This document shows, in pieces, positions 2,785 through 13,319 of a stretch of DNA of 64,000 nt. Below the pieces are notes generated by a model. The model made no database searches, was not told where the DNA came from, and saw only the letters and a list, made by a program, of their open reading frames with translations. The DNA comes from Denitrovibrio sp. (GTDB lineage: Bacteria > Chrysiogenota > Deferribacteres > Deferribacterales > Geovibrionaceae). The position numbers and the translations under genes were made by a program. Location of the stretch: positions 1 through 64,000 of the forward strand of contig PKTM01000008.1 in assembly GCA_002869145.1 (NCBI GenBank). The letters run 5' to 3'. Positions within the stretch are counted from its first letter, which is position 1. Every line of letters starts with the position of its first letter.

Positions 2785-3786
2785 GTGTTTAGTTTATTAA
2801 AATTCAACTTTCTAATATTTTATATAATTCTTTTTACATTCATAGCCACAAGTGCGTTTTGCGCAGTCCCTACTATGCGAATTTCTGTCGAAAACCTTGA
2901 TTCTCATATTCAGTCCAAAGCTGTCAGAATGTTCGCTGAAAAGCTTCAAGAGAGCGCTGATGGCGAGATAAATGTAGAAGTGTATACCTCTGCTAAACTT
3001 TACCAGGGCAAAGATGTTATCGGCGCATTGGTCAGAGGCAACATTGAGATGGCTGTCCCCGGCAGTTGGCATATGAGTAAATATGTGCCAGATGTTAGCC
3101 TTCTCCTGCTTCCTGCATTTTACTGTAGAGATAAATCCTATTCAGAAAAACTTCTGAATGGCGAACTTGGTAAAAAACTTAACAGATCTATTGAAAATAA
3201 ACTTAATGCCTATATTCCTGGCAGCTGGATAGACCTTGGATATGCTCATCTGTTTTTTAATAAGAATAACATTAAAAGTATAAACGGCTTGCAAGGCTTG
3301 AATATCAGAGTTGCAGGGGGATATGCTAATGAGCAAAGGAACAGGCTTATTGGTGCGGAGGCTATCACCATTGCATGGCCGGATTTGAAAACAAAGCTTT
3401 CACAGGGGCAAATAGACGGACTTCTGACATCTTACATGACTATAGATACAGCAGAACTCGACAAACTAGGTGTTAGCTCAGTTATAGAAGATAAACAGTA
3501 TTTCCCTAGATATATACCTATAATAAGAGCAAGCTTCTGGAAAAGACTTGACTCTACTCTTCAGGAGAAAATACGTAAAGCTTGGTCAGAAGTAGCAAAA
3601 TGGCAGCGAGACGAGGCTGAAGCAATGCAGCAGGCTTCCAAAAAAGCACTAATCTCAAGAGGTATAGAAGTTGTTATCCCCAATCAGAAACAAATACAAG
3701 AGACAAGGGAAATGCTTTTAAAACACCAGAGCGAGATTTCGTCAAGGCTTGGCATCAGCTCAGAAATGATTGAAATGGTGCATTAG
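2785..3786 (+). CDS. TRAP-type (DctP family) periplasmic solute-binding protein
   Basis: Secreted DctP/TAXI-type binding protein, 333 aa. It starts at GTG 2785 behind CGGAG and has a signal peptide ending near 'ATSAFCA'. Family landmarks: 'RMFAEKLQESADGEINVEVYTSAKLYQGKDVI' region, 'GSWIDLGYAHLFFNKNNIKS', 'GLNIRVAGG' with the Arg expected to bind the substrate carboxylate, and 'GQIDGLLTSY'. TRAP importers normally have DctQ and DctM genes beside them, but none is present. Instead a histidine kinase follows immediately, so the protein more probably senses a small organic acid for that kinase, as DctP-type sensors do, than feeds a transporter. The ligand cannot be predicted. Confidence 0.87.
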   Translation: MFSLLKFNFLIFYIILFTFIATSAFCAVPTMRISVENLDSHIQSKAVRMFAEKLQESADGEINVEVYTSAKLYQGKDVIGALVRGNIEMAVPGSWHMSKYVPDVSLLLLPAFYCRDKSYSEKLLNGELGKKLNRSIENKLNAYIPGSWIDLGYAHLFFNKNNIKSINGLQGLNIRVAGGYANEQRNRLIGAEAITIAWPDLKTKLSQGQIDGLLTSYMTIDTAELDKLGVSSVIEDKQYFPRYIPIIRASFWKRLDSTLQEKIRKAWSEVAKWQRDEAEAMQQASKKALISRGIEVVIPNQKQIQETREMLLKHQSEISSRLGISSEMIEMVH

Positions 3787-3787
3787 T

Positions 3788-5512
3788 ATGGCAATGAAGT
3801 CATATTCTCATATAACCACAATGGTTGTGCTTTTTGGACTTCTTATTTTTCTCAGTATTTTTTCTTTTATAAGTATTACAGGTTACATAGAAAATAAAAA
3901 AGATTTATTAAGGGTTATAAAGGAAAGGTCACTTTCGCAGGTTGAGCTTATTACAATACAAATGGAGAGGACTATTGAAAGAGCTGATGTGGCTCTTTTG
4001 CAGATAGTAAATTCTGTAAGTAAAGGTGATCCAGTCGAGAATAATAAATCAAATCCGTATAGCATAAATAGTGATCTACATGTTTATTTACGTGAGTCTA
4101 ATTTTGATGAATTTAACGAAAAAAACGAAGATTTTAAAGATTTTATAATTGAACGATATACTGTTCATTTAGAGCATATTTTTGAGCTTACGTTCAGTCA
4201 GTTCACAGAAAAGTCCAGTGGTTTAAACAGTTTTGTTATATCAAGATCACTTTATGACGTTAAAGGTGATTTTACTGGTATAGCTGTTGCAGTTATCAAA
4301 TCTGACAATTTTTTTAAAGAACTTCATGACTATAGGAATATTGAAGCCGATAGCATATATATCTACGATTTTAACCATAACCTCCTTTCAGCATATAACG
4401 CTGGAAATCCTATTAATAATTTTCAGGCTGAGACTTTTCTTGAAAGTGGCGGCTTAGGGTATTACTCAGATGAGCAGAAAATATTAACAACTAGTCAGGC
4501 AGATTTATTTCCATTAAGGGTGGTAACTTACCGAGATATGACGCCTGTTCTTAAAGAATTCAGAGATAATCAGAAAAAGCTTATGAGCATAGTTCTTGTC
4601 CTTGTAACCATAATGGTAGCAATAGTTAATATCTTTTTCGCAAGATATGTAATAGTTGCGCATCAGAAGGAACAGCAAAAAAATATGATACTGGCACATC
4701 AGTCGAGGATGGCTCAGATAGGTGAAATGTTCAGCAATATTACTCATCAATGGATCCAGCCTTTAAACACTATGAAGCTTCTTTTTAGTTCTATTGAGCA
4801 AAACCTCTCTGACCCAAAAAAAGATAAAGAGTCTATAAAGGGGCTGTGCGGTATTGGGATATCTCAGACAATGCAGCTATTTGATACAATAGATACTTTC
4901 AGACGCTTTCTTAAACCGACGAAAAACACTGAACCTTTTAATCTTTGCAATGTTACTACTGATACACTTAAGATTTGCATCCCTCTTTTTGCAGCCTCCA
5001 ACATCAGCATCAAACTTTCATGTGCTTATGGGAAAAAAGACAGCTTTGAAGAGATAAACAACATGCTGTATGTAAACTGTTCGAAGGGTGACAATAATAA
5101 GCTGCTGCACGGCAGTATGATTGTTAAAAACGGATACAAGAACGAGCTTATTCAGGTGCTTTTAAACCTTTTTGCAAATTCAAAAGATGCATATATAGCC
5201 AATGCAGACAATTTGCCTGCTGAACAGAATAAGGATATAGTTGTAACTCTGACCAAACTGGAAGATAGTGCTGAAATTACCGTTACAGACTTTGCTGGCG
5301 GAATGCCTGAGCATATCCGGAAAAGGGTTTTCGAAAAAGATTTCACAACTAAAGGGGATCAAGGAACCGGTATTGGCCTGTATCTATGCAAAACTATTGT
5401 GGAAGATCTTTTTGAAGGTGAGATTAAGTTAGAATCATTTGATGGTAAAACAAAAATAACTCTGACTCTCCCTTTATATGAATCCTCAAGCTCAGATTTT
5501 CAGGAAACTTAA
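3788..5512 (+). CDS. Membrane sensor histidine kinase, partner of the DctP-like protein
   Basis: Sensor kinase of 574 aa from ATG 3788, one base after the preceding stop; an in-frame ATG at 3770 would overlap that gene and is less likely. A transmembrane helix near residues 8-30 and a second near 265-285 ('LMSIVLVLVTIMVAIVNIFF') enclose a ~230-residue periplasmic sensor region. The cytoplasmic part has a dimerisation helix with phosphorylatable His320 in 'ITHQWIQPLNTM'. An ATPase domain follows, with N box 'LLNLFANSKDAY', G1 'DFAGGMPEH' and G2 'GDQGTGIGLYLC'. Coupling to the upstream binding protein implies ligand-controlled phosphorylation; the receiver at 2140 is the obvious candidate partner. 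Confidence 0.88.
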   Translation: MAMKSYSHITTMVVLFGLLIFLSIFSFISITGYIENKKDLLRVIKERSLSQVELITIQMERTIERADVALLQIVNSVSKGDPVENNKSNPYSINSDLHVYLRESNFDEFNEKNEDFKDFIIERYTVHLEHIFELTFSQFTEKSSGLNSFVISRSLYDVKGDFTGIAVAVIKSDNFFKELHDYRNIEADSIYIYDFNHNLLSAYNAGNPINNFQAETFLESGGLGYYSDEQKILTTSQADLFPLRVVTYRDMTPVLKEFRDNQKKLMSIVLVLVTIMVAIVNIFFARYVIVAHQKEQQKNMILAHQSRMAQIGEMFSNITHQWIQPLNTMKLLFSSIEQNLSDPKKDKESIKGLCGIGISQTMQLFDTIDTFRRFLKPTKNTEPFNLCNVTTDTLKICIPLFAASNISIKLSCAYGKKDSFEEINNMLYVNCSKGDNNKLLHGSMIVKNGYKNELIQVLLNLFANSKDAYIANADNLPAEQNKDIVVTLTKLEDSAEITVTDFAGGMPEHIRKRVFEKDFTTKGDQGTGIGLYLCKTIVEDLFEGEIKLESFDGKTKITLTLPLYESSSSDFQET

Positions 5513-5634
5513 TAAACATATATACGCACATTTTTATCAATGCTATCTATAATTTTTCAGGCTTAGTTGCCTAAGATGATTTTATATACTATTTTAATAT
5601 ATACATTACTATTACAATTTATTTGGAGTATAGA

Positions 5635-6474
5635 ATGAAAAAGATATTATTTGCATGCTTACTAATACTTTTTTCAGTAACACTTTATGCGAAACCTTTA
5701 ATTAAATATGGAATATCTTCAATGCTTTCAGCATCTAATACTTTTATCCATTATGAAGAGCTGAACAACTATATAGCTGAAAAGCTAGGTGTTGAATCTG
5801 AAATAATACATAAAGAAAGCTATAGCGATATGAATCAGCTGCTTGAAAATCAGCAGGTGGATTTTGCAAGTATCTGCACAGGTGCCATGTTATATCTGAA
5901 AGATGGAAGCTATTCGATTGTTGTTGTACCAGAGATAGACGGGAAGAGTACCTATAAGTCACTAATTATCACTAATAAGCATTTAGGAGTAAATTACACT
6001 TCACAGCTAAAAAATAAAACATTTGCTCTCACAGACAGGCTTTCAAACACGGGATATCTGTTTCCGAACTATTATTTTTCTAAGAATTTCAGCAAACCTG
6101 AAAGTTTTTTCTCTAAAATATTTTTTACCGGAACACACGACAAATCGATTTATCTTGTGAACAAAGGTGTTGTGGATGCGGCAGCAGTAGATAATCTTGT
6201 TTATGATAATCTTAAAAGTCAGAATATAAAAAATGTTAAAAATATAAATATTATCCACACTTCTCCAGAGTTCGGGATTCCCCCTATAGTTGCCTCTAAC
6301 AAGATGAATAATGAAGACATTCGCAGACTTCAGGAAGTGCTGCTTAACATGCATAAGGATGAGAAGGGGAAGTATATATTGAATGAACTAATGATGGACA
6401 GGTTTATACTGCCATCTATGGAAGCTTACGAAAATGTGTTGATAATGAAAGACTATGTTGAAAATACTAATTAA
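5635..6474 (+). CDS. PhnD-like periplasmic oxyanion/phosphonate-type binding protein (sensory)
   Basis: Secreted binding protein of 279 aa. ATG 5635 with GGAG seven bases upstream is preferred over an in-frame TTG at 5623. The signal peptide is MKKILFACLLILFSVTLYA. The mature part, 'KPLIKYGISSMLSASNTFIHYEEL', then 'DFASICTGAMLYL' and 'FALTDRLSNTGYLFPNYYF', follows the PhnD/phosphonate-binding pattern. No ABC permease or ATPase gene accompanies it. It overlaps a histidine kinase by 20 nt, which is followed by an NtrC-type regulator and arrABD. AioX, the periplasmic arsenite sensor for arsenite oxidase, belongs to the same broad family and is encoded with a kinase (AioS) and a sigma54 regulator (AioR). 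By analogy this protein may sense arsenate or arsenite; that is inference. Confidence 0.8.
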   Translation: MKKILFACLLILFSVTLYAKPLIKYGISSMLSASNTFIHYEELNNYIAEKLGVESEIIHKESYSDMNQLLENQQVDFASICTGAMLYLKDGSYSIVVVPEIDGKSTYKSLIITNKHLGVNYTSQLKNKTFALTDRLSNTGYLFPNYYFSKNFSKPESFFSKIFFTGTHDKSIYLVNKGVVDAAAVDNLVYDNLKSQNIKNVKNINIIHTSPEFGIPPIVASNKMNNEDIRRLQEVLLNMHKDEKGKYILNELMMDRFILPSMEAYENVLIMKDYVENTN

Positions 6475-7816
6475 ATATCTGCCGGATTCCTTTAAAAACA
6501 GGTTTCTGGTTTTATTCATTTTATTTGCTGTGCTTGCAGGATTATCAAGTGTCTTCACGCAATATTATTATGACAGAGGAGTGTTCAGGGAGTATGCAGC
6601 AGAGACTATTTTGAATATCCACAGAAGCAACGAAGACAGACTTAAGGATGCGATTCTTTTTGATGATATATATACTCTTTTCAGCGTAACCGAGAACATT
6701 TCTAAGAGTGTTTCTCTTATTAGTAACGTCTATGTACTAGATAAATCAGGCAAATACATCACAGACGGTCTTGTAACTAAAAAATTGCCAGAACCAAACC
6801 ACTCAGACACGGAAAGATATGCTCTTAGACTGAAAAACGGAAAAGAGATCGGTTTTGTTGTTTATCAGGTAGATACCAATAAGATACATCAAACAGGTTT
6901 AAAGCATAGCTTGACGAATCTTTTGTTTATTATCCCTATAATTATAATATTTATATTCATAAGTATTAAACTGATACTCTTTTTCACAAAACCATTGAAT
7001 ATAATTTCTAAAAACATAAAAGACGCAGATATTGCTAATCTGCCGTTTACATTTAATTTACCTGATTATGCAAGCGCAGAGGTGAAAAACCTTTCAGATG
7101 TATTTTTTTCCCTTTCAATGGAGCTGGAACGCCACATCAAGCATAATATCGAGCAGGAAAAGGCACTTGCAAAAGAAGAGAGGCTGGCTGCGATAGGGTC
7201 GATGTCTGCCGGACTTGCCCATGAGCTGAGGAATCCCGCAATGAGTCTGCAGATGCTGATGCACAGCATAAAAAATGCGGACAACACCATTGGCAAAGAG
7301 GATATCGAAGTTATGGACAGGGAGGTGTCGAGAATAGCCTCCACTGTAAATGAGTTTCTAATGATATCTAAGCCGATAACCATACATAAGGCAGAAACGA
7401 ATACTGCCATACTGAAAAAGCAGGTTTCAGAGCATGTCCAAAGAGTGCTGAAGGGAGCCATAAAACTGACACATTCCGCAGATGATTTTGTGTTTATCTC
7501 TGACCCTCTTATGCTTTTTAACATACTGGAGAATCTTTTAAATAATTCATATGAAGCAGGAAGCAGTAAATGTTTTTTAGAATTTACTAAAGATAATGAA
7601 GACGTTACTATTATTTTCTCTGATAATGGCTCAGGTATTCTTGAAAAACATCGGGACAAGATATTTCACCCGTTTTATACTACTAAAAACTCAGGTACAG
7701 GCCTTGGTATGAACATGTGTGAGAAGATGGCATCTTCTTTGGGCGGGAGCATTGCGCTTGACACAAACGTGGAAAAGGGAGCAAAGTTTATCATTAAGGT
7801 GAAAGATTTAATATGA
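6455..7816 (+). CDS. Sensor histidine kinase paired with the PhnD-like protein
   Basis: Sensor kinase of 453 aa. ATG 6455 lies 20 nt inside the upstream gene and the 3' end overlaps the regulator gene by four bases, so all three are translationally linked. A transmembrane helix near residues 15-35, a periplasmic domain of ~120 residues and a strongly hydrophobic second helix ('LLFIIPIIIIFIFIS') are visible. A linker leads to the dimerisation helix with His256 in 'GLAHELRNPAMSL'. The ATPase domain shows 'ILENLLNNSYEAG', 'DNGSGI' and 'GTGLGMNM'. It is NtrB-like in its cytoplasmic half, consistent with an NtrC-type partner. Its probable role is to phosphorylate the downstream regulator when the PhnD-like protein binds ligand. 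Confidence 0.9.
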   Translation: MLKILIKYLPDSFKNRFLVLFILFAVLAGLSSVFTQYYYDRGVFREYAAETILNIHRSNEDRLKDAILFDDIYTLFSVTENISKSVSLISNVYVLDKSGKYITDGLVTKKLPEPNHSDTERYALRLKNGKEIGFVVYQVDTNKIHQTGLKHSLTNLLFIIPIIIIFIFISIKLILFFTKPLNIISKNIKDADIANLPFTFNLPDYASAEVKNLSDVFFSLSMELERHIKHNIEQEKALAKEERLAAIGSMSAGLAHELRNPAMSLQMLMHSIKNADNTIGKEDIEVMDREVSRIASTVNEFLMISKPITIHKAETNTAILKKQVSEHVQRVLKGAIKLTHSADDFVFISDPLMLFNILENLLNNSYEAGSSKCFLEFTKDNEDVTIIFSDNGSGILEKHRDKIFHPFYTTKNSGTGLGMNMCEKMASSLGGSIALDTNVEKGAKFIIKVKDLI

Positions 7817-9183
7817 AAAAAATACTTATTATAGACGATGACACTTCTCTGACTTACTCACTACAGAGAGCCTTTTCATCGCAATATAACATACTTACAG
7901 CAAATAATGCCGCTGATGGCTTAAAACTTTTGGGAAAAGAATCAGAGATAGGGCTTGTTTTTTTAGATTACAAGCTTGGAGAAGAGAACGGTCTTGATGT
8001 TCTTGAGCGCATAAAAAAAGATTATCCTGAAACTGCTGTTGTTTTTATGACAGCCTATGGAACAAGCGGAACAGTTCTTGAGGCTGTAAGGGTTGGCGCG
8101 GCAGATTTTCTTGTAAAGCCTGTTACACCTGATGAGTTTGTGAAGGCTGTGGAATCATACTATACAGTCCCCGCCATAAACTGTGGAAAAGGTTTTATAA
8201 GCGTACCGCAATACAACAAATCCAATAAGCTTGTGGGCATCTCGAGGGCTATACGTGACGTTTTGAAACTAACAGCTTCAGCATCCATGTCTGATGCACC
8301 AGTGCTTTTGACTGGTGAGAGCGGAACAGGTAAAGACCTGGTGGCAAGCCTGCTTCATGAATACAGCGACAGAAAGAGTAAACCGTTTTTAGCAATAAAC
8401 TGTGCTGCGATACCTCAGGAGCTGCTTGAGAGCGAACTGTTTGGTTATGTGAAAGGAGCATTTAGCGGTGCTGTTAATTCCAAGATGGGGCTTCTGCAGT
8501 CTGCAGAGGGTGGGACAGTTTTTTTAGATGAGATAAGTGAGATGCCTATTGATTTGCAGGCAAAAATGCTGAGGTTTCTTCAAAATGGAACTATACAAAA
8601 ACTGGGCGAGCTGAAAGAGATAAATGTTGATGTACGTATAGTTGCTGCCACTAACAGAGACATTAACATGCTTGTTGACAGCGGCAGGTTCAGACACGAT
8701 CTTTTTTACAGGTTAAGCGTAATTAATATCAATATCCCTCCGCTTCGTGACAGACGTGAGGATATCGAAGAGATAGCTCTTCATTTGATAGGCAAGCACA
8801 GCAGCAAACGCGGCAGAACAATATCCTGTGTGGACAGGAAACTTATAGAAATGCTAAAACAACAGAACTGGGCGGGAAACGTCCGTGAGCTTGAAAATAG
8901 GATCAGGGAAGCGATAATACTTGCGAAGACAAACTACCTTACAGTTGACGATATAAATGTTGAAACCTTGTCTGACGATAGCTCAGAAATAGATCTTTTC
9001 AGTTACTTCGAAGCAAAAAACAGTGATGATATCTATAATAAAAGTATAGAAATGTGCGAGAAAGAGCTGATAAAAGGCGCTCTAAAAAAGCACGACGGCA
9101 AGCTTGCAAAGGCCGCCGAGTGGTTAAATGTGTCCCGTGTGACACTCAACACAAAGATAAAAAAATTCAATATAAAAGCCTAA
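7813..9183 (+). CDS. NtrC-family sigma54-dependent response regulator
   Basis: Enhancer-binding regulator of 456 aa. The receiver (1-~120) has phosphoacceptor Asp52 in 'FLDYKLG'. The AAA+ domain (~140-380) has Walker A 'GESGTGKD' near residue 168, a GAFTGA loop written GAFSGA near 215, 'FLDEIS' as Walker B and an arginine-finger region 'FYRLSVI'. The C-terminal Fis-type helix-turn-helix is 'GKLAKAAEWLNVSRVTLNTKI' (~430-450). The Ser in the GAFTGA loop is a conservative change at the sigma54 contact. Directly after its stop come two palindromes and a -24/-12 promoter in front of arrA, so arrABD is the most likely target. Confidence 0.95.
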   Translation: MKKILIIDDDTSLTYSLQRAFSSQYNILTANNAADGLKLLGKESEIGLVFLDYKLGEENGLDVLERIKKDYPETAVVFMTAYGTSGTVLEAVRVGAADFLVKPVTPDEFVKAVESYYTVPAINCGKGFISVPQYNKSNKLVGISRAIRDVLKLTASASMSDAPVLLTGESGTGKDLVASLLHEYSDRKSKPFLAINCAAIPQELLESELFGYVKGAFSGAVNSKMGLLQSAEGGTVFLDEISEMPIDLQAKMLRFLQNGTIQKLGELKEINVDVRIVAATNRDINMLVDSGRFRHDLFYRLSVININIPPLRDRREDIEEIALHLIGKHSSKRGRTISCVDRKLIEMLKQQNWAGNVRELENRIREAIILAKTNYLTVDDINVETLSDDSSEIDLFSYFEAKNSDDIYNKSIEMCEKELIKGALKKHDGKLAKAAEWLNVSRVTLNTKIKKFNIKA

Positions 9184-9224
9184 AACGTAAAGATAGTTTA
9201 CGTTGATGTAAAGATGTTTTACGT
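9184..9224. promoter_or_regulatory. Two tandem palindromes, probable enhancer sites for the NtrC-type regulator
   Basis: Site 1 (9184-9204) is a perfect inverted repeat AACGTAAA-N5-TTTACGTT. Site 2 (9206-9224) is ATGTAAA-N5-TTTACGT with one mismatch between arms. Their centres are 21 bp apart, two helical turns, so dimers would sit on the same face. They lie about 117 and 96 bp upstream of the start point expected from the -24/-12 element, the normal position for sigma54 enhancers. Confidence 0.82.
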
Positions 9225-9284
9225 ATACCTGACTCTGTATGCCTCCATATTAAATGTTACCAGTCACTTACTCCAAATTTTTTT

Positions 9285-9300
9285 TGGCATGTCTATTGCA
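9285..9300 (+). promoter_or_regulatory. Sigma54 (-24/-12) promoter of arrABD
   Basis: TGGCATGTCTATTGCA has the GG at 9286-9287 and the GC at 9298-9299 exactly 10 bp apart and matches the TGGCAC-N5-TTGCW consensus at all but one defined base. The predicted start of transcription is near 9311, followed by AGGAGG at 9325-9330 and the arrA ATG at 9336. Confidence 0.88.
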
Positions 9301-9335
9301 TATACTCCTTTGACGAAAACTCGTAGGAGGTCTTT

Positions 9336-11870
9336 ATGAAATTAAGAAGACGAGACTTTCTGAAAGCAACTGCCGCAGTAAGTGCTGTTGCTATGGTCGG
9401 ATGCGGAGCACCTAAAAACAACGCTCTTGCACCCATGGACCCAAAGAAAGCTATAGGCGAAGATCCAGGCAAATGGATTTCTACCACTTGCCAGGGATGT
9501 ACAACCTGGGATCCTATCCAGGTGTTTGTTCAGGACGGACGTGCTGTAAAGGTAAGGGGTAACCCAAACAGCAAAGGAAATATGGGAACCTGCTGTCCAA
9601 GAGCCCATATGGGGCTTCAGCAGCTTTACGACCCGGACAGGGTTAAGGTTCCAATGAAGAGAACCAATCCGAAAAAAGGACGTGGTATTGATCCTAAATT
9701 TGTTCCAATCAGCTGGGACGAAGCTCTTAATATTATAGCTGACAAGATGATGGAACTCCGTAACAACGGTGAAGCTCATAAGTATATGCTCAACAGAGGG
9801 CGTTATACATATATGAGAGACATGATCTATGATGCTATGACAAAGATTTACGGTTCACCTAACAATATTTCTCACTCATCCATCTGTGCTGAGGCGGAAA
9901 AATCCGGTGCATTTTACACTCACGGATACTGGGACTACAGAGATTATGACCTGACAAGAACAAAATATCTCCTTATCTGGGGACTTGATCCGCTTGTTTC
10001 AAACAGGCAGGTTCCTTTTGTTATTAAAACTTTCGGAGACGTACTTGACAAGGCTACAGTTACTGTTGTTGACCCGAAGCTGAACGCTTCCGCTGCGAAA
10101 GCACATAACTGGCTCCCTCTACTTCCGGGAACTGACGGTGCACTTGCTGTGGCTATAGCACATGTTCTTCTTACAGAAGACCTCTGGTACAAGCCTTTTG
10201 TAGGTGATTTCAAAGACAGTGTGAACCATTTCAAAGCCGGTGTGACACTTGACGAATCTTCTTTCGAAGAGAAATACACTAACGGTATCATTAAATGGTG
10301 GAATCTCGAACTGAAAGACAAGACACCTGAATGGGCAGAGAAAGAGTGCGGTATATCAGCAGAGGTTATTTATAAAACAGCAAGAGAGATGTCTGTTGCT
10401 GCTCCTTCTGTTTGTGTATGGATGGGGCCTGGTGCTGCAATGCATGTTCGGGGTACATATTCTGCAATGGCTGTTGAGGCTCTCTGCGGTCTTCTCGGCA
10501 ACCTTGACAACATCGGCGGAACAATGATGAAGGGTAAGACCCTCGCTGCAAAAATGCCTAAGCTTGATGACTACAAGGACAAGATAGCTAAGATAAAGCA
10601 TAAGTACAAAATTGATCAGCGTGGATACCTTGAATTTCCTGCTCTTAATAAAGGTAAATCCGGTGGTGGTGTTGTGACAAACAACCTTGCTGACGGTATG
10701 CTCCAGAAAGACCCAATGGAAATCAAGATGGGTATCGGTTACATGAACAACTTCGCATTCTCAGGAACAGGCGCCCAAAGATGGGAAAAAGCCATGAGCG
10801 AGCTTGAATTTTACGTTCATATCACTACAAACGCTTCAGAAATGACACAGTTCGCAGATATCGTTTTGCCTGCTACTATAGCAACTTTCGAGAAGTGGGG
10901 TTACCTTAAGAGTAAAGCAAATCTTCACTCTCAGGTTTCTCTTCTTCAGCCTGTAGTAGAACCTATATGGGACGTAAGGACTGACGAGACAGAGATTCCT
11001 TTCCTTATCGCTGAAAAGCTTGCCGAAAGAGGCTTTGATAACTTGCTTCGCTACTACAAAGAGCAGATCAAAGACCCTGAAACAGGTAAAGGCGCATCCA
11101 ACGCTAGAGAATTCGCTGAGATATCTGTTAAATACTACACCGCTCCTGCATGGGACGGTTCAGGTAAGATAGGCGACAAAATCAACGGTTGGGAAGAGTA
11201 CAAAGCTGTTGGTGTGTGGAACGACGACAGGTATGGCTATAAGAAGAGCTGGGGCAAGTTCAAAACTGAAACCAAAAAGTTTGAATTCTACAGCGAAACA
11301 CTGAAAAAAGCTCTCGGAAAGCATGCGAAAAAGCATAATGTTGATGTAGATAAAGTTCTTGAGGTCTGCAACTATGAGGCAAGAGGCGAGAAAGCGTTTG
11401 TTCCTCACTACGAGGCTCCATTCAGATATGGTTCATTTGAGGAATATCCTTTAACATTCATAGACCATAAATCAAGACTTAACAAAGAGGGCAGAAGTGC
11501 CAATACTCCTTGGTATCAGGAATTTAAAAAAGTAGACCTGGGTGACGAAAGCTGGGATGACGTTCTTAAAATCAACCCTGATGATGCTGCGAAATACGGC
11601 ATTAAAAATGGCGATATGGTGCGCATCACCTCCACAAACGGCAGTTTCACCATTAAAGCAAAACTTTGGGAAGGACTGCGCCCGGGCACAATTACAAAAT
11701 GTTATGGGCAGGGTCACTGGGCATACGGCCGTGTGGCGGCTCTTGACTACAAAAACGCTGAACCGAGAGGCTTCAACAACAATGAACTGATGCCTTGTGA
11801 TTACGACAGACTCTCAGGAAGTACCGCAAGAAACGGCGGCTTCTGCGGCGTTAAAATCGAAAAGGTATAA
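9336..11870 (+). CDS. arrA: Respiratory arsenate reductase catalytic subunit (ArrA-type molybdoenzyme)
   Basis: Molybdopterin oxidoreductase of 844 aa, predicted to reduce arsenate to arsenite in the periplasm as ArrA with ArrB. The Tat signal is 'LRRRDFLKATAAV', followed by VGCG, a possible lipobox. Assignment to ArrA rests on remembered family blocks: 'CQGCTTW', 'KFVPISWDEA', 'YTHGYWDYRDYD', 'SSICAEAEK' with Cys184 as probable Mo ligand, and 'WWNLELKDKT'. The length (844) fits ArrA (~850). The N-terminal cluster motif is odd: Cys52-x2-Cys55-x3-Asp59-x27-Cys87, with Asp replacing the expected third Cys and an extra Cys86. Closely related selenate or other CISM reductases cannot be fully excluded. 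No ArrC/NrfD anchor is encoded nearby. Confidence 0.85.
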   Translation: MKLRRRDFLKATAAVSAVAMVGCGAPKNNALAPMDPKKAIGEDPGKWISTTCQGCTTWDPIQVFVQDGRAVKVRGNPNSKGNMGTCCPRAHMGLQQLYDPDRVKVPMKRTNPKKGRGIDPKFVPISWDEALNIIADKMMELRNNGEAHKYMLNRGRYTYMRDMIYDAMTKIYGSPNNISHSSICAEAEKSGAFYTHGYWDYRDYDLTRTKYLLIWGLDPLVSNRQVPFVIKTFGDVLDKATVTVVDPKLNASAAKAHNWLPLLPGTDGALAVAIAHVLLTEDLWYKPFVGDFKDSVNHFKAGVTLDESSFEEKYTNGIIKWWNLELKDKTPEWAEKECGISAEVIYKTAREMSVAAPSVCVWMGPGAAMHVRGTYSAMAVEALCGLLGNLDNIGGTMMKGKTLAAKMPKLDDYKDKIAKIKHKYKIDQRGYLEFPALNKGKSGGGVVTNNLADGMLQKDPMEIKMGIGYMNNFAFSGTGAQRWEKAMSELEFYVHITTNASEMTQFADIVLPATIATFEKWGYLKSKANLHSQVSLLQPVVEPIWDVRTDETEIPFLIAEKLAERGFDNLLRYYKEQIKDPETGKGASNAREFAEISVKYYTAPAWDGSGKIGDKINGWEEYKAVGVWNDDRYGYKKSWGKFKTETKKFEFYSETLKKALGKHAKKHNVDVDKVLEVCNYEARGEKAFVPHYEAPFRYGSFEEYPLTFIDHKSRLNKEGRSANTPWYQEFKKVDLGDESWDDVLKINPDDAAKYGIKNGDMVRITSTNGSFTIKAKLWEGLRPGTITKCYGQGHWAYGRVAALDYKNAEPRGFNNNELMPCDYDRLSGSTARNGGFCGVKIEKV

Positions 11871-11880
11871 GGAGTAAACT

Positions 11881-12636
11881 ATGGCTAAAATGGCAATGGT
11901 AATCGACCGCCAGAAATGTGTCGGCTGCGGCGCCTGCGGTATTGCCTGCAAGACAGAAAATAATACTCAGGGCAGAAAGGACGGACAGTCATTTAACTGG
12001 GCTGATTTTATGTTAAAAACAGAAGGTAAGTTCCCGAGTGTCAAATTCACTGCTTTGCCTGTTCTTTGCAATCACTGCAGTAATGCAGCTTGCGTGGATG
12101 CATGCCCAGTAACACCAAAGGCTATGTTTAAGACAAAAGACGGTATAACAATGCATAACGATGAAAGATGCATCGGCTGCCGTTCATGCCAGGAAGCATG
12201 TCCTTACAGTGTATGGGATCTTAGAGAAGAGGGTGAATACAGTGTTATCAGCTTTAACTCTGATGACGAAGAGACACATCCAGCTTACAGAGACAAAACT
12301 GAACTGATAGCAGGATGTACAAGCTCTGGCGCTGAGATAGCTGCTAAAACAGGATCTCTGCCCCCTATGGCAACTGCATATAAACACCCTGAGTACGACA
12401 GCGTGAGACGCAAGGGTATTGTTGAAAAGTGTATCCTGTGTTCACACAGATTAGCAAACGGCGAGAATGCATACTGCGCTGATTCCTGCCCTTCGGGAGC
12501 AAGAATAGTAGGTGATATCAACGATCCGAACAGCAAGGTATCAATACTTTTGAAAACATATGATTATGAGGTTCTTAAACCTGAAGCTGGAACAAAACCT
12601 AATGTTTATTACATAAGGAACTACAGCATAAAGTAG
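11881..12636 (+). CDS. arrB: Fe-S electron-transfer subunit of the arsenate reductase
   Basis: Ferredoxin-like subunit of 251 aa passing electrons to the molybdenum subunit, starting 10 nt after arrA behind AAGGAG. It has no signal peptide, as expected for a partner carried across by the Tat signal of ArrA. Four cysteine clusters are visible: 'CVGCGACGIAC' near residue 13, 'CNHCSNAACVDAC' near 63, 'CIGCRSCQEAC' near 97, and a late group 'CILCSHRL' with 'CADSCPSGA' near 180-205. This is the arrangement of the four-cluster PsrB/TtrB/ArrB family. The length is slightly above ArrB (~235) because of an insert around residues 125-165. Confidence 0.88.
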   Translation: MAKMAMVIDRQKCVGCGACGIACKTENNTQGRKDGQSFNWADFMLKTEGKFPSVKFTALPVLCNHCSNAACVDACPVTPKAMFKTKDGITMHNDERCIGCRSCQEACPYSVWDLREEGEYSVISFNSDDEETHPAYRDKTELIAGCTSSGAEIAAKTGSLPPMATAYKHPEYDSVRRKGIVEKCILCSHRLANGENAYCADSCPSGARIVGDINDPNSKVSILLKTYDYEVLKPEAGTKPNVYYIRNYSIK

Positions 12637-12716: not shown

Positions 12717-13319
12717 ATGACAACAGAGTCTTTATCAATAAATGCAGAGATATGCAGGCTTTTTTCTATTATGTTTTACAACCCGGAAGAGACATTCCTT
12801 TCAGAGCCGGAAACTGTTAAAGCACTTTCCGGGCTTTTAAAAGAGGCTGATGCCTCTCTTAAAGAAGATGCTGAAACTCTTGTGAATTCTCTTGAGGGAG
12901 TTGACAGGCAGGAGCTTATGCTTGATTATGCCGCACTTTTTGTGGGACCATTTCAGCTTCAGGCACCGCCTTACGGTTCAGTATATCTTGACCTTTCTAA
13001 AACAGTGAACAGCGAATCCACAGCAAAAGTAGTGGATGTTTATAAAAAGTTCGGTCTGAATGTGGATGCGGAAATGAGAGAACCTGCTGACCATATAGCA
13101 ATAGAGCTGGAGTTCATTCATACAGCACTTATCACCATAGGCAATATGAAAAATCAAAACAGAGATGCTTCAGAGCCTGAGCAGGCTTTACGTGATTTTG
13201 TTAATAAATTGTTTATGCCATTAGTATCCCAGATGTGTGAACTTATGCAGAAGAATGCATCTACAGATTTCTACAGAACATTAGGGCGTATACTTTTAAA
13301 ATATTCTGATAACATTTAA
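12717..13319 (+). CDS. arrD: TorD-family molybdoenzyme maturation chaperone
   Basis: Cytoplasmic chaperone of 200 aa with ACGGAG before ATG 12717. The all-helical TorD/DmsD/NarJ family is shown by 'DYAALFVGPFQLQAPPYGSVYL' (about residues 63-85), which fits the E/D-Y-x-x-L-F-x-x-P...P.S.Y pattern, and by 'EPADHIAIELEFIHTAL' (about 121-137), the D-H/EL.F. motif of the second half. Such proteins bind the Tat signal of their apo-enzyme and assist cofactor insertion before export. The neighbour with a Tat signal is arrA, so that is the probable client. A terminator hairpin separates it from arrB and another lies right after it. Confidence 0.85.
   Translation: MTTESLSINAEICRLFSIMFYNPEETFLSEPETVKALSGLLKEADASLKEDAETLVNSLEGVDRQELMLDYAALFVGPFQLQAPPYGSVYLDLSKTVNSESTAKVVDVYKKFGLNVDAEMREPADHIAIELEFIHTALITIGNMKNQNRDASEPEQALRDFVNKLFMPLVSQMCELMQKNASTDFYRTLGRILLKYSDNI

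Follow-up and report, generated by a model that had tools for sequence, protein, structure and literature searches.

A predicted sigma-54 control region with tandem palindromes before the arsenate-respiration operon of Denitrovibrio sp. and its counterpart before TtrBA-like operons of related Deferribacteres

The arrXSR-arrABD locus

The stretch of DNA analysed here, referred to as the window, comprises 64,000 nucleotides of a Denitrovibrio sp. contig. It carries genes for an ArrX-like sensor, a histidine kinase and an NtrC-type regulator, followed after a short gap by arrA, arrB and a gene for a TorD-type chaperone, and was therefore recognised as an arrXSR-arrABD locus. The features of the locus and of the gap are as follows.

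arrX, 5623..6474, + strand: periplasmic arsenic-oxyanion sensor of the AioX/ArrX subfamily; ATG start probably at 5635; Pfam Phosphonate-bd, 9.8e-55
arrS, 6455..7816, + strand: membrane sensor histidine kinase with HisKA and HATPase_c domains; overlaps arrX and arrR
arrR, 7813..9183, + strand: NtrC/AtoC-type response regulator; Pfam Response_reg, Sigma54_activat (1.6e-67) and HTH_8
UAS1, 9184..9204, no strand assigned: perfect palindrome AACGTAAA-GATAG-TTTACGTT, centre 9194; predicted ArrR dimer site at -117
UAS2, 9206..9224, no strand assigned: palindrome ATGTAAA-GATGT-TTTACGT with one imperfect pair, centre 9215; predicted ArrR dimer site at -96
-24/-12 sigma-54 promoter element, 9285..9300, + strand: TGGCATGTCTATTGCA; kept at all nine Deferribacteres arrA operons
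Predicted +1, 9311, + strand: 12 bases past C9299, placed from position
arrA ribosome-binding site, 9325..9330, + strand: AGGAGG, read from the sequence
arrA, 9336..11870, + strand: catalytic subunit of respiratory arsenate reductase; Tat signal; RGRY motif; 6cz7, E 0
arrB, 11881..12636, + strand: iron-sulphur subunit; NF041715, 258 bits (cut-off 450)
arrD, 12717..13319, + strand: TorD-type chaperone; PF02613, 2.4e-28

The best solved match of the window ArrX is ArrX 6x6b (E 2.8e-43), followed by AioX 6esk (1.4e-27). On comparison with the AioX pocket, six of the seven residues were found to be identical (Y88, C106, Y131, S161, H192 and D210), with S163 replaced by Thr; the protein is thus a PhnD-like periplasmic protein with an AioX pocket that includes Cys106. 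The X, S and R genes adjoin an arsenic molybdoenzyme operon in the window as well as in relatives, where arrS is kept beside X and R. The regulator at 7813 is the last member of this three-gene sensor system, and comprises a receiver, a sigma-54 AAA+ domain and a Fis-type helix-turn-helix. In an alignment of seven orthologues, its sigma-54 contact loop reads GAFSGA in the window and in several relatives and GAFTGA in others, the AAA+ domain being present; the change from Thr to Ser is conservative and common to several relatives.

ArrA scores 1182 bits against NF041714, below the cut-off of 1600, the match being full length and to what is by far the best family. Since the scores fall under the NCBIfam equivalog cut-offs, the assignment of ArrA leans on full-length similarity, on the solved ArrA structure 6cz7 as its best solved relative and on the RGRY motif, all of which bear out the identity that had been proposed from the sequence.

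Directly upstream of arrX lie two overlapping genes (2785-5512), one for a binding protein of the DctP type (TRAP family) and one for a histidine kinase, in which Pfam detects the ATPase domain alone and no HisKA. No such DctP-kinase pair was seen at the arr loci of those class members that were examined; it may provide a second sensor input to ArrR or to a different regulator. A lone receiver-domain protein (2140-2553), encoded between this pair and an oppositely oriented gene for an ABC-type binding protein, is a candidate partner of the kinase at 3770.

The control region between arrR and arrA

The gap between the end of arrR (9183) and the start of arrA (9336) measures 152 bp and, as described in the sequence-only reading, houses both palindromes as well as the promoter element. 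The sequences of the palindromes and their centre-to-centre spacing of 21 bp were correct to the base, and the promoter element, TGGCA-N6-TTGCA, has its GG at 9286-9287 and its GC at 9298-9299 with 10 bases between them. Taking C9299 as -12 sets the predicted start point at 9311 and the palindrome centres at -117 and -96, and the distances of about 117 and 96 bp given earlier hold on this convention.

The paired-position score of the window (13/14) was not equalled by any of 500 dinucleotide shuffles. Allowing up to three mismatches, the tandem arrangement GTAAA-N5-TTTAC-N6-GTAAA-N5-TTTAC occurs a single time in the 2.88-Mb genome, with no mismatch at this site and no match for the reversed control. 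The lone palindrome at up to two mismatches is uninformative, giving 17 genome matches as against 36 for its control. The search for single palindromes near other -24/-12 promoters, proposed as a way to the rest of the regulon, thus led nowhere in this genome, no other examined site being suitably placed; the tandem search likewise yielded no second target, and the regulon in this genome thus seems to consist of this single operon. In other genomes the motif proved useful, leading to a different enzyme (see below). The palindromes do not conform to the AioR-type site GTTN10AAC, with which GTAAA-N5-TTTAC has only the outer GT...AC in common.

For the promoter pattern TGGCAN6TTGCW, 27 matches were found genome-wide as against one for the reversed control, indicating that sigma-54-type promoters form a real class in this genome, in which rpoN was also found. 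These 27 strict matches can be used for mapping the RpoN regulon of the host.

Conservation at arrA across the phylum

It was found that 12 of the 51 genomes of the phylum contain arrA, nine belonging to the class Deferribacteres and three to Chrysiogenaceae. All nine Deferribacteres arrA operons are preceded by a -24/-12 element at a distance of 50-68 nt from the start codon and by two tandem palindromes 21-23 bp apart of the form GTAAA-N5-TTTAC or GTATA-N5-TATAC, whether arrXSR lies upstream or downstream, which lends strong support to the original suggestion of an enhancer-promoter pair. In the two genomes of genus g2, GTATA-N5-TATAC stands in both sites, and hence the halves of both palindromes have changed together. 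In genus g1 the sites, the promoter and the ribosome-binding site are kept while much of the spacer has diverged. When eight relatives were searched for a pair with the window motif, none of 2000 shuffles was as good in six, and 8-18 of 2000 were as good in the two GTATA-type genomes. The genome of the window and G018, discussed below, belong to the same genus.

The Chrysiogenaceae arrA operons (n=3), which served as negative control, showed neither tandem palindromes nor the -24/-12 element. One of them (L119) carries TCAGGTTTTTCCCTGA, the FixJ-like site that PMC5908839 describes for Chrysiogenes, where ArrR is of the CitB type and not an AAA+ protein.

UAS1 starts immediately after the stop codon of arrR, a position that might fit a transcription terminator or another 3' element of that gene. 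The site is, however, AT-rich, lacks a following T-run and is one of a matched pair. In three genomes (G012, G014 and G017; L112, L113 and L116) arrA has no regulator genes in front of it but keeps the tandem sites, and UAS1 is likewise kept where the upstream gene is not arrR in L182, L183 and L184. As the sites persist beside different upstream genes, a terminator was ruled out and a 3' role for UAS1 is considered extremely improbable.

The distance between UAS2 and the promoter (71-100 bp) was also examined for helical phasing, which was suggestive at 10.5 bp; the fit was best, however, for a period of 12, at the limit of the range scanned, and therefore phasing is not claimed.

The same arrangement before a TtrBA-like operon

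Searching the tandem motif in the 51 genomes gave six perfect matches. Five of them lie before arrA and the sixth, found in G013, precedes another operon, so that all the zero-mismatch matches sit at arr or TtrBA-like promoters. Weak matches elsewhere in the phylum were, at two mismatches, about as frequent as those of the reversed control and are attributed to chance; weak tandem matches were accepted only with the promoter and XSR genes also present. Pursuit of the match in G013 and of weaker ones, together with a survey of X, brought out nine genomes without arrA (G006, G009, G010, G011, G013, G024, G025, G027 and G028) in which XSR homologues are accompanied by tandem sites and a -24/-12-like element, the -12 dinucleotide of this element being GA, not GC, in six of the nine. 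The operon behind these sites codes for a TtrB-like protein and a TtrA-like molybdoenzyme of approximately 1030-1140 residues. Because the same sensor and sites precede a TtrBA-like operon in relatives lacking arrA, the switch is tied to a respiratory process and not to one enzyme family.

Of the 48 class genomes, 18 contain arrA or the TtrA-like enzyme and all 18 have X; 28 contain none of the three (Fisher p 2.6e-11 for the association of enzyme and X, a value that ignores shared ancestry). X occurs without a visible enzyme in G008, where the contig ends, and in G015, where X has only 195 residues. The shortened homologue of G015 (G015:C1:143954-144499) has no S, R or molybdoenzyme visible beside it. 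Similarly, G024 has a second X (L215) in which the pocket His and one Ser are missing and which is seen without S, R or molybdoenzyme beside it. Both homologues are possible remnants or may have other functions.

Another observation concerns G018 (L221), in which arrA and a TtrBA-like system occur together in one genome. Its second XSR system has a -24/-12 element, lacks the GTAAA sites and has a regulator loop reading GSFTGA, an arrangement that looks as though the two relays were held separate.

Exchange of enzyme genes within a genus

In genus g7, two genomes (G012 and G014) have the arrangement arrABD-XSR and the third (G013) ttrBA-119aa-rhodanese-XSR, the identity between G012 and G013 being 89% for X, 91% for S and 96% for R. 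DNA similarity between L182 (3-11080) and L187, L112 and L113 runs on both sides of the enzyme genes and ends inside them, and when the promoter regions are aligned, both palindromes and the -24/-12 element stay in register. On the regulator tree, no fewer than three changes between arr-type and TtrBA-like enzymes are needed, and the pairing of regulator and enzyme has therefore changed more than once. The swap under a near-identical regulator in this genus provides a natural experiment in the rewiring of respiratory pathways.

Possible nature of the TtrBA-like enzyme

There is about an even chance that the ArrXSR/tandem-site switch points to a second enzyme for arsenate respiration, namely that the TtrBA-like enzyme serves as arsenate reductase in Deferribacteres lacking arrA, among them Deferribacter desulfuricans, and that whole operons of two families have been exchanged under a fixed sensor and enhancer. 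An alternative arsenate reductase is the likeliest single reading of this enzyme, at roughly even odds. Enzymes of the TtrA clade comprise tetrathionate and selenate reductases as well as an alternative arsenate reductase (PMC7331816, PMC10100899), and the Ttr enzyme of D. autotrophicus has been described as uncertain in function, its authors having doubted a Ttr function because no NrfD-type membrane subunit or TtrC was found (PMC6896113).

The operons of the relatives could instead encode tetrathionate, polysulphide or selenate reductases, with X sensing another oxyanion and the shared sites reflecting only the ancestry of the regulator. TtrA and TtrB are the best NCBIfam matches of the enzyme, tetrathionate and selenate reductases fall within the same clade (PMC7331816) and a periplasmic rhodanese encoded after the enzyme in G013 and G011 speaks for sulphur. 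However, the TtrA-like enzymes score 459, 499 and 426 bits against NCBIfam TtrA, far from the cut-off of 1750, and the TtrBA-like operons showed no membrane subunit of the NrfD type. Genes for arsenic resistance (ars) adjoin the locus in four of the nine genomes (G010, G011, G024 and G025), and the X proteins of these loci keep the arsenic pocket. Moreover, arrA is absent from G011, which is D. desulfuricans, a species described as arsenate-reducing (in the title of Takai et al. 2003, cited in PMC6896113), and the Ttr locus beside ArrTSR in Melioribacter responds to arsenate (PMC5492636). On this evidence a sulphur or selenium substrate is regarded as a serious though only tentative reading, with roughly one chance in three.

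In L183/L222 (G011, D. desulfuricans) and L219 (G010), the TtrBA-like operon is separated from the XSR genes by arsR, arsC and acr3. The TtrBA-like operon of G011 is located at about 1,455,900-1,459,800 of G011:C1.

Proposed mechanism

Very probably, the region before arrA is the control region of an arsenate-respiration operon, at which an arsenate-sensing XSR relay acts via sigma-54 on arrABD. ArrR is the predicted binding protein, arsenate the presumed signal and 9311 the putative start site, and the steps of binding and phosphotransfer are inferred by analogy with AioXSR (PMC7533571, PMC3834237). Periplasmic ArrX would bind arsenate and signal to the kinase ArrS, which would phosphorylate ArrR; ArrR dimers would then bind the two palindromes, two helical turns apart, and assemble an AAA+ ring, whose ATP hydrolysis would open sigma-54 polymerase at the -24/-12 element and turn on arrABD. 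Several observations weigh against this reading: the GAFSGA loop of ArrR, the scores of ArrA and ArrB under the NCBIfam cut-offs, the GA at -12 in six of the nine TtrBA-like promoters, and the DctP-kinase pair upstream of arrX, which could also act on ArrR.

ArrR has been matched to the palindromes by linkage and conservation only, and they might bind another regulator, for example of the ArsR, FNR or PhoB type, with the sigma-54 activator serving the -24/-12 element alone. Nevertheless, for 17 of the 18 tandem-site operons an NtrC-type homologue of ArrR is encoded within or close to the locus (that of G014 lying partly beyond the stretch examined), the exception being G028, where no R gene was seen on a 17-kb contig. 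In addition, the tandem sites are missing where ArrR is of the CitB type, and the pairing of the sites and their distance from the promoter are those expected of enhancer sites. A separate regulator is thus thought improbable, and ArrR stays the predicted ligand of both sites.

Novelty and significance

The layout of two palindromes and a -24/-12 element is already known at aioBA with aioXSR (PMC3834237). As far as the literature searched shows, its presence at Deferribacteres arrA, the distinct 15-bp motif and its sharing by ArrAB and a TtrBA-like enzyme are new; no paper describing these three points was found in a search outside which most subscription papers lay. The results fill a gap in the literature, in which arrXSR had been described in 2018 as missing from Deferribacteres and no RpoN promoter had been detected upstream of Chrysiogenes arrAB. 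The binding motif picks out candidate arsenate-respiration operons independently of homology to arrA. With a named candidate gene, the results also suggest a possible route of arsenate respiration in arsenate reducers that lack arrA, D. desulfuricans being an example.

Comparison with known systems

The closest parallel in layout is AioXSR-aioBA of Rhizobium NT-26 and Agrobacterium, which shares the PhnD-like sensor, the kinase and the NtrC-type regulator, as well as a tandem pair of palindromes located 100-200 nt ahead of the enzyme gene together with a -24/-12 element (PMC3834237), given as TGGCACAACGATTGCA in NT-26 (PMC6011840). The target of that system, however, oxidises arsenite, whereas here arsenate is reduced, and the AioR site is GTTN10AAC, 16 bp in length and footprinted as GTTCGGATTTCCGAAC (PMC5335332), in contrast to the 15-bp GTAAA-N5-TTTAC described here.

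ArrXSR of Chrysiogenes arsenatis includes the closest solved relative of the window ArrX (6x6b), which, according to PMC5908839, binds arsenate with a Kd of 1 uM, ArrXSR being proposed there to control arrAB. Unlike that of the window, its ArrR is described in the same paper as CitB-like and without AAA+, and no RpoN promoter was found before arrAB, a result reproduced here. The epsilonproteobacterial arrXSR has an AtoC-type ArrR, as in the window, although its promoter architecture is not described in the passages of PMC5908839 that were consulted. Melioribacter roseus ArrTSR-Ttr resembles the TtrBA-like loci in that genes of the ArrXSR kind, along with ars genes, adjoin a Ttr-type molybdoenzyme with a transcript that increases on arsenate (PMC5492636); it belongs, however, to another phylum, its sites and promoter are undescribed, and the authors preferred a Psr-type enzyme as the principal reductase (PMC5492636).

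Lastly, Rhodoferax-like arr operons (L047, L055, L065, L092 and L098) are similar in having X, and R too except in L055, beside arrA, with a -24/-12 element 51-54 nt before arrA, but differ in that XSR is divergent and the palindrome is single and of the AioR type, GTTACC-N4-GGTAAC. Across the betaproteobacterial arrA upstream regions of this kind (L066 and L087 in addition to these five), divergent XSR (R unseen in L055) and a -24/-12 element accompany the AioR-type GTTAC-N6-GTAAC.
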